From positions 1-34,154 of IMG/VR virus record IMGVR_UViG_3300044712_002672: 34,154 bases of DNA. The stretch is one strand, 5' to 3'. This DNA comes from a virus. Position numbers and translations under genes: made by a program. The notes below the pieces were generated by a model. The model had not been told where the DNA came from. It saw only the letters and a list, made by a program, of their open reading frames with translations, and made no database searches. Shown here piece after piece: positions 22,778 to 32,490 of the stretch (position 1 is the first letter of the stretch; each line of letters opens with the position of its first letter).

Positions 22778-23179
22778 ATGCGATGCGCGTCAGTACTGGC
22801 CTTTGCCTTCTTGGCATTGGGATTATCCTGGGCTCAGGTGGAGTTGTCGCCATCGACTATTTCGCCACAGGAGGAGCCCGGCATCAACTGGAACGAGCTA
22901 GACTTGCTCTTGCTGAATCTGAGCGCAGAAGCGGAGAGCTTACGAGCGAACTCGCAGAGTCTCAGCGACTCGCTGCAAGTGGCGTTAAACGGCTCGAAAC
23001 AGCTATCAAGCAAGCTGGCAAAGTCACAAGTTCTGGTGAGCGAATTACGGTCCTCGTTGCTGCTATCCGAGCTTTCGTTGAGTCGGCTAAAGCGTACTAT
23101 GGACATTGAGCTATGGGTCTGGAGGGGTGTTTCGGCCATAGGCTTGGCCAGCACCTTGGCAGTCCTCATCTTCCACTAG
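22778..23179 (+). CDS. Signal-peptide/coiled-coil/C-terminal TM protein (spanin-like, frame A)
   Basis: 133 residues. N-terminal signal sequence (SVLAFAFLALGLSWAQ), a long Leu/Ser/Ala-rich coiled coil (about 35-110) and a C-terminal membrane helix (GVSAIGLASTLAVLIF). Codons end mostly in G or C, matching the rest of the phage. It contains the whole gene at 22783-23109 in another frame. There is no lipobox Cys, so it is not a classical o-spanin. Likely the partner in an envelope-disruption pair. Confidence 0.65.
   Translation: MRCASVLAFAFLALGLSWAQVELSPSTISPQEEPGINWNELDLLLLNLSAEAESLRANSQSLSDSLQVALNGSKQLSSKLAKSQVLVSELRSSLLLSELSLSRLKRTMDIELWVWRGVSAIGLASTLAVLIFH
22783..23109 (+). CDS. Rz-like i-spanin candidate nested in another gene (frame B)
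   Basis: 108 residues from ATG 22783 with the better-spaced ribosome binding site. An N-terminal membrane anchor (about 6-26: GLCLLGIGIILGSGGVVAI) is followed by a charged periplasmic-type helix (RARLALAESERRSGELTSELAESQ), the layout of i-spanins such as lambda Rz. It lies wholly inside the 22778-23179 gene but in a different frame. Codon bias is weaker than in frame A, so it may be the younger frame. Function inferred from layout and position. Confidence 0.55.
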   Translation: MRVSTGLCLLGIGIILGSGGVVAIDYFATGGARHQLERARLALAESERRSGELTSELAESQRLAASGVKRLETAIKQAGKVTSSGERITVLVAAIRAFVESAKAYYGH

Positions 23180-23207
23180 CCCGAGTTTCGCTACCTTGGG
23201 ACACCGG

Positions 23208-23237
23208 GCCGGGGCGGTATATACCCCGGCGTTTTTG
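23208..23237 (+). terminator. Strong intrinsic terminator closing the late region
   Basis: GCCGGGG (23208-23214) pairs with CCCCGGC (23224-23230), followed by GTTTTTG. It lies 29 bases after the last lysis gene and 13 before the next promoter, dividing late from early genes. Confidence 0.88.
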
Positions 23238-23249
23238 TCCCTTTTATGC

Positions 23250-23277
23250 TTGACATATGCCGATATTGGGATAGTAT
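23250..23277 (+). promoter_or_regulatory. Early promoter 1
   Basis: Consensus TTGACA (23250-23255), 16-bp spacer and TAGTAT (23272-23277). Preceded by TTTTATGC, so that TTTTATGCTTGACA is identical to the promoter at 30820-30833. Drives the replication/regulatory block. Confidence 0.75.
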
Positions 23278-23304
23278 TGGTATAGGTCAAGCATGGGAGG
23301 TCAT

Positions 23305-26024: not shown

Positions 26025-28261
26025 ATGGACTATCAGGAGTTCTTGGACAAGAAAAAACCGTGGACAGGGCCACGGGGCTGGCGATGGTGCCGGAGCTTAA
26101 TCCCATGCTGTTCGATTTCCAGCATGACATCGTGTCATGGGCGTTGAAGCGCGGACGAGCAGCGATCTTTGCCGACTGCGGTATGGGCAAGACCCCGATG
26201 CAACTTGAGTGGGCCCGGCACATCCCTGGTCGGGTGCTGATCGTAGCTCCGCTTGCGGTATCGGCACAGACCATCCGCGAGGCGGAGAAGTTCCATGAGG
26301 ACCCGCTTGAGTATTCGCCCGATGGCTCCGTGACATCGAGGATCACGATAACCAACTACGAGCGGATAGAGCATTTCGATCCCGAGATGTTCACCGGGAT
26401 AGTGCTGGATGAATCGTCGATTCTTAAAAGTTACACGGGCAAGTATCGCACCGAGCTTATAGAGCGGTTCGGCAAAGTGCAATATCGTCTTGCATGCACG
26501 GCTACTCCGGCTCCAAACGACTTCATGGAGCTTGGCAACCATGCCGAGTTTCTCGGAGCGATGAAGCGCACGGAAATGCTATCCATGTTCTTTGTCCATG
26601 ATGGAGGGGATACGCAGCAATGGCGGCTCAAGGGCCATGCCGAGTCCGAGTTCTGGAAGTGGATATGCTCATGGGCCGTGATGATCCGCAAGCCTTCCGA
26701 TCTTGGTTACGATGATGGCAAGTTCATCCTGCCTGAACTGAGGATGCACCAGATAACGGTGCATACCGAAGAGCCGACCGATGGTATGCTGTTCGCGGTC
26801 GAGGCCCAGACGTTGCAGGAAAGGCGGGGAGCCAGGAGGGCCAGCATCGCCGACAGGGTCAAGGCTTGCGCCGACAAGGTGAACAGTCTTGATTCACGGT
26901 CGATAGTCTGGTGCGATCTCAATGACGAGTCGCATCAACTCACGAAGGCCATACCTTATTCAATCGAGGTTGAAGGTGCCGATACCGAAGAGCATAAGGT
27001 CAATGCGCTTCTCGGTTTCTCGCAAGGTGCCATCAAGACGCTTGTCACGAAGCCGCGCATCGCAGGGTTCGGGATGAACTTCCAGTCATGCCATAACGTG
27101 TTTTTTGTGGGCCTGTCCGATTCATACGAGCAGTTCTACCAGGCCGTCCGAAGATGCTGGCGGTTTGGCCAGACAGATCCTGTCGATTGCTACGTGGTCA
27201 CATCGGACATCGAGGGAGCCGTGGTAAAGAACATCCAACGCAAAGAGGAGGACGCGAATAGAATGGCTGAAATGATGGTCGCCAACATGCATGAGATAAA
27301 CGAGGCCAATATCAAGGGCATGACGAGGACAAAGGATGAATACAAGGAAGGCGTGCAATCTGGAAACGGCTGGACCGTGTACCTTGGCGATTGCGTGGAG
27401 CATACTGCGAAACTTCCGGACGAGTCCGTACACTTCTCGGTATTCTCGCCGCCCTTTGCCTCGCTGTTCACCTATTCCAATTCCGACAGGGACATGGGCA
27501 ACTCCAAGGATGACGAGGAGTTCGCGCGGCACTTCCAATACCTCATCAAGGAGCTTTACAGGGTACTGATGCCGGGACGGCTTGTCAGCTTCCATTGTAT
27601 GAACATTCCCACAAGCAAGACGCATAACGGCTACATCGGCATACGCGACTTCCGGGGCGACCTTATCCGGGCTTTTGAAGCCGAAGGATTCATATTCCAT
27701 TCAGAAGTCTGCATCTGGAAAGACCCGGTGACGGCCATGCAAAGGACGAAGGCCATAGGGCTCTTGCACAAGCAGCTTGTCAAGGATTCCGCCATGAGCC
27801 GGCAGGGAGTGCCCGATTACCTTGTCACCATGAGGAAGCCGGGGGTCAATCCCGAGCCGGTCGAGGGTGAGCTTGACCACTACTGCGGTGCCGAAGGGAC
27901 GTTTCAGTCAACGGGCAGGCTGTCAATCGACATCTGGCAGCGGTACGCAAGCCCGGTATGGATGGACATCAACCCTTCGGACACCTTGCAGAAGGATTCG
28001 GCCCGTGACGAGAAGGACGAGCGGCACATATGCCCGCTTCAGCTTCAGGTCATCCATCGGGCGCTTCAGCTTTGGACGAACCCAGGGGATACGGTGCTGT
28101 CACCTTTTGCGGGCATCGGCTCCGAGGGCTACGAGTCCATCAAGCTTGGCCGGAAATACATCGGGATAGAGTTGAAGGAAAGCTACTATCGGCAGGCGGT
28201 GGCCAACATGAAGGCCATAGAGCGGGAATGCACCACGGGGATACTAGACTTCGGAGTATGA
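26025..28261 (+). CDS. Helicase-DNA methyltransferase fusion, N-terminus out of frame
   Basis: 733 residues from GTG 26060. The N-terminal SF2/SNF2-type helicase has ADCGMGKT (38-45), a DEAH-like LDESS (116-120), TATP (147-150) and QAVRRCWRFGQ (361-371). The C-terminal methyltransferase has SPPF (463-466) before FAGIGSEG (about 683-690), the beta-class order; SPPF often marks N4-cytosine enzymes. The natural start is ATG 26025 (GGAGG upstream), whose 11 codons MDYQEFLDKKK run into the helicase only after a -1 shift at an A6 run (26052-26057); this gives KKKTVDRATG. The enzyme could protect phage DNA. Confidence 0.85.
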
Positions 28262-28274
28262 TTTAGGATACAAT
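28245..28274 (+). promoter_or_regulatory. Promoter for the structured RNA
   Basis: TAGACT (28245-28250), an 18-bp spacer and TACAAT (28269-28274), overlapping the end of the methyltransferase gene. Transcription would begin near 28281, just at the start of the folded region. Confidence 0.6.
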
Positions 28275-28304
28275 ATCCGCGTCCTCCTTCGGCAGAGGTG
28301 GACA

Positions 28305-28331
28305 ATGCGCCTTGACAGGGGCATACTATGA
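28305..28331 (+). CDS. Possible 8-residue leader peptide
   Basis: ATG CGC CTT ... CTA TGA, with AGAGG seven bases upstream. Its Shine-Dalgarno lies in the arm that pairs with the loop of the terminator, and its stop touches the base of the long stem, so translation could affect termination. Very short; could be chance. Confidence 0.3.
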   Translation: MRLDRGIL

Positions 28332-28406
28332 GAGCCGTTTACGAGTCCAGGGAAGCTGTCACTTCCCTAACCTCTGCCGGGGGGACTCGTAGGCGGCTTT
28401 TTATTT
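28331..28406 (+). terminator. Intrinsic terminator with 18-bp stem
   Basis: Stem 28331-28348 with 28383-28400 followed by TTTTTATTT (28398-28406). Ends the structured RNA or attenuates transcription into the initiator gene. Confidence 0.8.
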
Positions 28407-28417
28407 GGGGGCAGCCA

Positions 28418-29227
28418 TTGGGCAAACGGTTTTTTGATACCGGGATATTTGATCGCCCTTGGTATAGAGACCTTCCACCGCATGAAAAGAAGGCTTGGGA
28501 TTTCATAACCGCCCGATGCGATCCGGTGGGAGTATGGCACTTTGATCCCAAAGGGGCCGAGTTTTGCATCGGCCAAGAAGTTGACTGGAATGAGTTTTCC
28601 AGGAAATGCAATGGTAACATAGAGGTGCTCCCTTCGGGGAAATGGTGGCTAGTTGATTTTTGTGGGTTCCAGTACGGGCCGCTAAAACCATCTTGCAAGC
28701 CGCACGCAAGTTACCTTTCGTTGCTTGAATCTCACGGGCTTGAATCAAGATTCCAGAAGACCGCCAAGGGGTTTGTCTTTACTCGATTGCCTCTTGATAC
28801 TAAAAATCAAAGGGTATCCAAAGGGTATGGTAAGGGTATCCATACCCACAAAGAAAAGGAAATAGAAAAGGAAATAGAAAAGGAAATAGAAAAGGAAATA
28901 GAAAAGGAAGAGGAAGAGAGGATTGTTCTGGGAGAGTTTGCCAACGTGAGACTATCAAAGAAGGACCACGCGGCGCTTGTGGCAAAGTATGGGGTTGATC
29001 AGTCTTTGGCAATAATCGAGAAACTATCAGCCTACAAGTCTGAGAAAGGCAAGGTGTATAAAAACGACATGGCTGCTATCCGGCTTTGGGTGTTGGAATC
29101 CATGGGAGCCAAACCATTGCCGCCAGATGCCCCTAGCTGTCCGATATGCGGACATGAACTTTCCGATAACATTTGCCCGAACGCGGCATGTCCGCAATAC
29201 GAGGATAACCATGAAGAACCTTTCTAA
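28418..29227 (+). CDS. Phage replication initiator-like protein
   Basis: 269 residues from TTG 28418 with GGGGG six bases upstream; an upstream ATG 28328 would place coding sequence across the terminator stem and is rejected. The N-terminal domain (KRFFDTGIFDRPWYRDLPPHEKKAWDFI) is of the winged-helix type seen in phage DnaD/O-like initiators. The middle has four KEIEKEIE-type repeats, encoded by exact 12-bp repeats, and the C-terminus has a CPIC...CPNAACP zinc motif. Directly upstream of the DnaB-type helicase. Likely binds the origin in its own gene and recruits the helicase. Clearly more A/T-rich than the late genes. Confidence 0.7.
   Translation: MGKRFFDTGIFDRPWYRDLPPHEKKAWDFITARCDPVGVWHFDPKGAEFCIGQEVDWNEFSRKCNGNIEVLPSGKWWLVDFCGFQYGPLKPSCKPHASYLSLLESHGLESRFQKTAKGFVFTRLPLDTKNQRVSKGYGKGIHTHKEKEIEKEIEKEIEKEIEKEEEERIVLGEFANVRLSKKDHAALVAKYGVDQSLAIIEKLSAYKSEKGKVYKNDMAAIRLWVLESMGAKPLPPDAPSCPICGHELSDNICPNAACPQYEDNHEEPF
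28810..28906 (+). other. Candidate replication origin inside the initiator gene
   Basis: Three direct repeats AAGGGTATSS begin at 28810, 28821 and 28832 (11-bp period); the last forms GGGTAT-CC-ATACCC, an inverted repeat. Immediately after are four perfect 12-bp copies of GAAATAGAAAAG (28859-28906), a strongly purine-biased A-rich tract. Iterons next to an A-rich strand within the initiator gene mirror the lambda O origin. Confidence 0.55.
28859..28906 (+). repeat. Four perfect 12-bp tandem repeats
   Basis: GAAATAGAAAAG x4, in frame, encoding the charged EIEK-type helix of the initiator. Followed by a degenerate GAAGAGGAAGAG. Copy number is likely variable. Confidence 0.9.
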
Positions 29228-31837: not shown

Positions 31838-32490
31838 AAGCATGGTACTTCGCCCCGCCCGACAACCGGCTGGCGAACGGCGACGGGCGCAAGATCGCCC
31901 TCGGGACGACGCACAAAGTCGAGGGTCCGCCGGTGCTGCGCAAGCACGGACTGCACGCATCGGTGCAATTAGTCGACGCATTGCGATACTCGGCAAGCGG
32001 CATCCTCTACGAGGTCGAGCTGTCGGGCGAGATCTTCGAGGGCGACGACAAGTGCGCCGCCACGGAGCGGACCTATATCCGTGGCGGGATCGACTTGAGC
32101 GACACGTTCCGCGAGTTTGCCCGGTGGTGTGCCCTGTCGGTCGCGCATCTATGGGACATGCCCGCCGTGGTCCGCGAGTACCTGGAGACGGGCGATGAGT
32201 CCAAGAGGACCGCCGCACGGGCCGCCGCACTGGACGCCGAATGGGAGGCCGCACGGTATGCCGCAAGGGCCGCCGCATGGGCCATCGCCCGGGCCGCCGC
32301 ATGGGACGCCGCATGGGACGCCGCACTGGACGCCGCACTGGCCGCCGCACTGGACGCCGCACTGGCCGCCGCACTGGACGCCGCACTGGACGCCGCATGG
32401 GCCGCCGCATTGGAGGCCGCAAGGGCCGCCCAAAACATCAAGCTGGTCGAGATGTTCGAGGCCGCATGGGCCAAGGGAGGGACACGATGA
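31834..32490 (+). CDS. DUF7666-like protein with Ala-rich repeat tail
   Basis: 218 residues from ATG 31834 (GGAGGG upstream). The first 125 residues (MKAWYFAPPDNRLANGDG, RKHGLHASVQLVDALRYSASG, LYEVELSGEIFEGDDKCAATERTYI) match a phage/bacterial domain of unknown function usually called DUF7666. The rest is about 18 tetrapeptides (D/A/E)-A-A-(L/W/R), which should form a long helix with an aromatic stripe. Such Ala-rich tails often follow this domain. Biological role unknown. Confidence 0.65.
   Translation: MKAWYFAPPDNRLANGDGRKIALGTTHKVEGPPVLRKHGLHASVQLVDALRYSASGILYEVELSGEIFEGDDKCAATERTYIRGGIDLSDTFREFARWCALSVAHLWDMPAVVREYLETGDESKRTAARAAALDAEWEAARYAARAAAWAIARAAAWDAAWDAALDAALAAALDAALAAALDAALDAAWAAALEAARAAQNIKLVEMFEAAWAKGGTR
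32212..32429 (+). repeat. 12-bp minisatellite (Ala-rich tetrapeptides)
   Basis: About 18 units of the type GACGCCGCACTG or GCCGCCGCATGG in frame. The central units (32318-32400) are nearly identical, so unit number is likely to vary between relatives. Because of the 12-bp period, all frames on both strands are open here. Confidence 0.9.

Follow-up and report, generated by a model that had tools for sequence, protein, structure and literature searches.

The leader of the initiator gene repC of plasmid pT181 is a plasmid rep leader that works by transcription attenuation. In the repZ leaders of IncI and IncL/M plasmids, the loop of a 5' hairpin matches, as its complement, a site immediately ahead of rep, and the effect is exerted on translation via repY, with a leader peptide. 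In the RepR leaders of plasmids pIP501 and pAMbeta1, a terminator precedes the initiator gene, alternative pairings decide read-through, and loop contacts matter (PMC4981023). Among phages, the replication genes of P4 are blocked by RNA-directed premature termination, and the Gifsy-1 RNA IsrK exists both as a terminated small RNA and as a read-through mRNA (PMC4825925). The put and EAR RNAs act as RNA without a phage protein (review, PMC11658703).

Here, we describe an RNA element ahead of a replication initiator gene in the viral record IMGVR_UViG_3300044712_002672, analyzed over positions 1 to 34,154 (the whole 34,154-nt stretch is called the window). Like P4 seqA/CI and Gifsy-1 IsrK, it has a predicted promoter, a structured untranslated leader, and a predicted intrinsic terminator before phage genes (PMC4825925). 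It also shares with them internal complementary segments, here called A and A', and the P4 target is a replication operon, as it is for three of the four copies found here. P4 and IsrK give a terminated RNA and a read-through mRNA from one promoter; here, such a layout is predicted from the sequence. However, P4 has three complementary sites (seqA, seqB, and seqC), and only A and A' were found in the window record. The element also has no Rfam match, and we see no sign of a distinct RNA resembling CI.

The attenuators of pIP501 and pT181 likewise lead a replication initiator, as do three of our copies, the fourth leading a DUF5131 gene. Their mutually exclusive terminator and antiterminator are calculated here for two copies and not for the other two. 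The pIP501-type leaders differ in being controlled by a counter-transcribed RNA and in measuring approximately 300 nt, in contrast to approximately 125 nt here; a scan of our leader, limited to sigma70-like sites, scored no minus-strand promoter-like site at 9/12. In contrast to the IncI and IncL/M repZ leaders, a predicted intrinsic terminator intervenes here, and there is no conserved leader ORF. Compared at the level of layout, the HK022 put and EAR RNAs likewise place hairpins at the 5' end of an early transcript; the present element differs in ending in its own predicted terminator and a Shine-Dalgarno sequence.

A structured element between a methyltransferase gene and rep

The main called genes of the window are all on the plus strand; two short calls on the minus strand, at 22834 and 25192, are doubtful. 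The parts of the element and rep, as described below, are on the plus strand. The element, as delimited by covariance models R1 to R3, spans 28277 to 28408. Its upstream neighbor is a gene for a helicase-DNA methyltransferase fusion (26060-28261), and the gene that it leads is the replication initiator gene rep (28418-29227; replisome organizer, PHROG 13246). The N termini of Rep homologues, which begin MSKRF or MAKRM here, set the rep start at TTG 28418, 10 nt beyond the element and preceded by a Shine-Dalgarno-like GGGGG (28407-28411). We rejected ATG 28328 as an alternative start that would lengthen Rep at its N terminus, since the homologue N termini correspond to 28418 and this ATG is not conserved. 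Within Rep, positions 28860 to 28915 encode an in-frame repeat, KEIEKEIEKEIEKEIEK, built from a repeated GAAAAGGAAATA unit, which is a probable linker of variable length.

A preliminary description of this DNA had listed several parts of the element, and these are present. The sigma70-like promoter TAGACT-N18-TACAAT (28245-28274) is a 9/12 match whose -10 box ends 6 nt before the GUC of hairpin A; the match is weak alone, given that seven 9/12 matches occur across the region against 6.3 expected by chance. The long stem, described as 18 bp, is continuous and has 19 pairs when G-U is counted (28330-28348 with 28383-28401); its 3' arm and U-run occupy 28383 to 28402, with the U-run at 28398 to 28402. 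Atop it stands the inner 7-bp hairpin (28349-28368; 28349-28355 with 28362-28368). The further hairpin is a small one at approximately 28371 to 28382 and includes most of strand A' (ACCUCUGCCG, 28370-28379). The partner of A' is strand A (CGGCAGAGGU, 28290-28299), and the perfect 10-nt complementarity between the two does cross the long stem. AGAGG lies ahead of an 8-codon ORF (MRLDRGIL*, 28305-28331) that overlaps ATG 28328 and that we judge incidental.

That description had missed the TTG 28418 start, the two 5' hairpins, and an exchange of partners considered below. Hairpin A (GUC...GAC, 28281-28303), which bears strand A on its loop side, begins at the predicted +1, and hairpin B (28305-28324) follows it at a distance of one nucleotide; the two stand directly after the promoter. 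In the window copy, a dyad, GGATA-CAA-TATCC (28267-28279), is centered on the -10 box of this promoter and could be a repressor site.

The calculated fold of the window element has an energy of -66.8 kcal/mol (z score, -5.7), and none of 200 shuffled sequences is as stable; the terminator part by itself has a z score of -6.7. In a fold scan of the whole window, the element ranks among the stretches of lowest energy and lowest z score. The element ends in a stable GC-rich hairpin with a U-run behind it, as expected of a predicted intrinsic terminator.

Four covarying copies in three phages

Covariance model R1, built from the window element alone, recovered a full-length homologue in a second record, IMGVR_UViG_3300001866_000029 (G002; 69.4 bits, E value of 1e-16). 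Model R2, built from two sequences, found two copies (a and b) in a third, IMGVR_UViG_3300025009_000254 (G001; 71.6 and 47.1 bits, E values of 7e-18 and 3e-11); the E values of these searches are rough, as the calibration was shortened. The family sample is therefore four copies from three metagenomic phage records. Model R3, built from the four sequences, found no fifth copy in the three records or in the other sequences scanned.

The compensatory changes that the preliminary description had proposed to look for by covariance search were found at 27 of 45 base pairs (41 cells) across the four copies, with 93.8% of cells paired. Shuffled alignments gave a mean of 11.4 covarying pairs, and none of 500 reached 27; when the structure was slid by 1 to 3 columns, at most 12 pairs covaried and pairing fell to 41 to 51%. 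The terminator stem accounts for 12 covarying pairs out of 19, the inner hairpin for 5 of 7, the two helices of hairpin A for 5, and hairpin B for 4 of 7. The alignment was fitted to the covariance model, which favors the model's own structure; a check that does not depend on the model is that G002 and G001a adopt the same fold de novo. In G001b, the terminator half of this fold is present in the minimum structure and hairpin A is not.

Since four homologous copies show covariation, the element is very probably a real structured RNA that has not been described before, and we regard it as a new RNA family whose general kind is already known. This supports the earlier view of a self-contained, pseudoknot-capable RNA between the two genes, with its own predicted promoter and terminator. 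In agreement with the claim that no family of this layout is known, Rfam gave no match at the gathering cutoff for the window or the homologues, and none at an E value of ≤1 in the homologues; no curated Rfam model of P4 CI/seqA, IsrK, or the C4 RNA class matched either. Phage early-gene control, which in most known cases relies on proteins, would gain in it a strongly covarying RNA family not described before.

The four copies share one anatomy: a sigma70-like -10 box is followed by two hairpins, then by a long predicted terminator that has three parts and a U-run, and finally by a Shine-Dalgarno sequence and a start codon. Their -10 boxes (TACAAT, TAAAAT, TATATT, and TAGAAT) all end exactly 6 nt before the GUC of hairpin A, and this fixed spacing places the predicted +1 at hairpin A. 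At the other end, the U-run, present in all four copies, is followed by a Shine-Dalgarno sequence and a start codon 9 to 11 nt past the element, with no space for a second promoter.

The genes led are different. The window copy precedes rep itself, the G002 copy a 79-amino-acid ORF and then a rep gene (PHROG 1408/15768), and the G001b copy a 64-amino-acid ORF, a small ORF, and then a rep gene (Lin1244_N/PHROG 2562). Three of the four copies therefore lead replication-initiator operons, with initiators from different PHROG families. The remaining copy, G001a, leads a DUF5131/radical-SAM-like gene and no replication gene. The occurrence of one element before different initiator families in dissimilar phages points to a common way to set the timing or amount of the onset of DNA replication.

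The element follows the methyltransferase, not the initiator family

The preliminary description had proposed that homologous phages carrying the initiator gene without conserved pairing would speak against the element. Such relatives exist: the element is in none of about two dozen viral and bacterial Rep relatives, the nearer of which have 45 to 60% identity, and most of them start close behind the preceding gene. The gap before one relative (L199) holds a different, simple hairpin, GCCTGCCG/CGGCAGG. Yet the element tracks the methyltransferase rather than the initiator family. The methyltransferase is 79 to 81% identical in the three element-bearing phages, compared to 27 to 39% for most other shared proteins, and the element is absent from the scanned records with methyltransferase relatives at ≤67% identity or with replicative-helicase relatives. 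The helicase-methyltransferase gene thus appears, from these identities, to have been recently exchanged among the three phages. As the three are otherwise dissimilar, the cassette and the methyltransferase together probably mark a phage group sharing hosts.

Searches by sequence returned no further copies. BLASTn of the element against phages and plasmids gave nothing beyond a single 21-nt chance match, and a scan of 247 genomes of one bacterial phylum, run without a positive control, did not find the element. Exact-pattern matches in IMG/VR to the A/A' pair (20) and the terminator stem (13) were discarded as coding sequence or unrelated inverted repeats with the rest of the layout absent; the hairpin A pattern matched nowhere in IMG/VR. 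Protein- and pattern-based searches had missed the homologues, the first of which R1 then recovered; a covariance model of a single sequence can thus find RNA families of this sort where sequence search fails.

The crossing A:A' pairing is kept while its letters change

Perfect A/A' matches occur in all four copies, with lengths of 10 nt in the window (CGGCAGAGGU), 7 nt in G002 (CUAGCGG), 6 nt in G001a (CGGCAU), and 10 nt in G001b (CUGGCGGCGU). The letters differ in each copy while the complementarity stays. The summed length of 33 compares with a shuffle mean of 16.2 and is reached by none of 20,000 shuffles, and the cognate assignment of A to A' is the best of the 24 possible. Such cognate loop pairing gives a clear, testable prediction of RNA self-recognition. 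Individual matches are less telling: the 6-nt match of G001a is not significant by itself (P = 0.08), and the 10-nt window match is modest by itself (6/5,000 under a null that keeps hairpins A and B and permutes their pairs). Pairing across the six core A:A' columns reaches 95% of cells, in contrast to 27 to 50% when slid; covariation there is weak (33/500 shuffles).

In folds calculated for the growing window transcript, hairpin A persists to about 28375, the extended A:A' helix is the minimum from 28378 to 28394, and hairpin A with the terminator prevails from 28396. Cotranscriptional probabilities give the same order, with hairpin A yielding to A:A' at 28378 and A:A' to the terminator at 28396. 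Four GTCC/GGAC blocks exchange partners between the two states, making the window copy bistable in the computation. For the transcript ending at 28387, none of 1,000 sequences with a shuffled upstream part is as stable as the real one, and 10 of 1,000 are when the hairpins are preserved. The window A:A' helix displaces just the top few terminator pairs, which suggests that it may slow rather than prevent the terminator.

The competing 10-bp helix of the preliminary description thus stands for the window and G001b, in which A:A' is the calculated minimum during synthesis. It does not extend to G002 and G001a, in which a loop-loop complementarity of 6 to 7 nt is never the minimum-energy fold. 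A nested antiterminator was therefore rejected as a general rule, its fold being calculated in two of four copies; the general feature appears to be a loop-to-loop contact, of which the long antiterminator helix would be a stronger form.

A probable attenuator and its alternatives

About 15 nt separate the end of the predicted terminator from the rep start codon. This gap is too short for a second promoter, so rep would have to be transcribed through the terminator. With the downstream gene reachable by read-through only, we read the element as the promoter and 5' leader with which a phage early operon begins, acting as a transcription attenuator, with a probability of roughly 0.6. This favors the attenuator over the stable noncoding RNA that the preliminary description had offered beside it. 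In such a scheme, the RNA would start at about 28281 and fold hairpins A and B. The long hairpin and U-run would then form, and most transcripts would stop at about 28402, giving an RNA of approximately 122 nt. As long as the terminator is only partly synthesized, the hairpin A loop strand could instead pair with A' beside the terminator 3' arm; in the window copy, the resulting helix (minimum from about 28378 to 28394) could hold up terminator formation or prevent it, so that polymerase would enter rep, which has its ribosome site immediately after the U-run. In this reading, the element would work as an on/off switch, with A:A' promoting read-through and not termination. Tuning would most simply come from a second RNA in competition for one of the two strands, or from a protein of the phage or its host.

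The main rival, possible if not probable, is a trans-acting small RNA. Here, the terminated RNA of approximately 122 nt would pair through its loops with nascent leaders of its kind and lower or raise read-through into rep, as a dosage-sensing feedback or immunity RNA working like P4 CI or Gifsy-1 IsrK while being neither. The self-contained promoter-to-terminator unit is consistent with this, as are the loops, which diverge between copies with cognate pairing kept and differ even between the two copies of G001. The P4 replication-gene block and IsrK provide precedents (PMC4825925). The 17 unpaired columns that are invariant among the four sequences are scattered, and the lack of a long conserved unpaired run also fits an RNA of this type. 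However, cis pairing also accounts for this loop pattern, duplexes between cognate strands are not in every case calculated to be more stable than noncognate ones, and the window record holds no third complementary site of the P4 kind. A broader and tentative idea, which we consider somewhat unlikely, is that of a portable control cassette of approximately 160 bp (promoter, self-recognizing loops, and terminator) that has come to stand before initiators from different families. Its terminated RNA would sense phage genome dosage in trans through loops diverged to the point that each copy would recognize only itself.

A plain, unregulated, leaky terminator that merely lowers expression is unlikely. 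The terminator stem is indeed the strongest and best-conserved part, with 98.7% of cells paired across the four copies, but such a terminator needs neither hairpins A and B nor the promoter spacing nor A:A', and all of these are conserved. Distinctly unlikely is a riboswitch or protein-bound leader with the 5' hairpins and their loop-loop contact as aptamer. Leader, terminator, and gene form its usual layout, and the hairpin B region is the most sequence-conserved stretch between the window and G002. The scattering of the invariant unpaired columns argues against it, as do the replication genes and the DUF5131 gene, which share no common metabolite, and the lack of an Rfam riboswitch match. 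It is very improbable that hairpins A and B modify polymerase as a processive antitermination RNA of the HK022 put or EAR sort: two hairpins one nucleotide apart right behind the promoter recall these RNAs, which set a precedent for action without a phage protein (PMC11658703), but the likeness considered is one of layout, the element has its own strong predicted terminator, and A:A' is left unexplained. Ribosome-mediated attenuation, whether from ATG 28328 or, as the preliminary description had proposed, by translation of the overlapping 8-codon leader, is hardly credible and was dropped as a general mechanism because the ORF is absent or frameshifted in the other three copies and shows no cluster of rare codons (AGG and ATA are not rare in the window phage, so rare-codon stalling was rejected). 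Computed for the window copy, however, masking by a ribosome at UGA 28331 turns A:A' into the minimum fold even at full length; with the ribosome at AUG 28305 instead, the terminator persists.

Other features of the window

The lowest fold z score in the window belongs to positions 23195 to 23300, just ahead of the early genes. A strong terminator (GGCCGGGG...CCCCGGC, TTTTT) is followed there by a dyad with 20-nt arms (23246-23265 and 23275-23294) that encloses the promoter TTGACA-N16-TAGTAT. This dyad and promoter are probably the main early promoter and its operator. In the late small-gene cluster, positions 32241 to 32474 form a repetitive stretch that is Ala rich in one frame and reads RRTGRR in the other.
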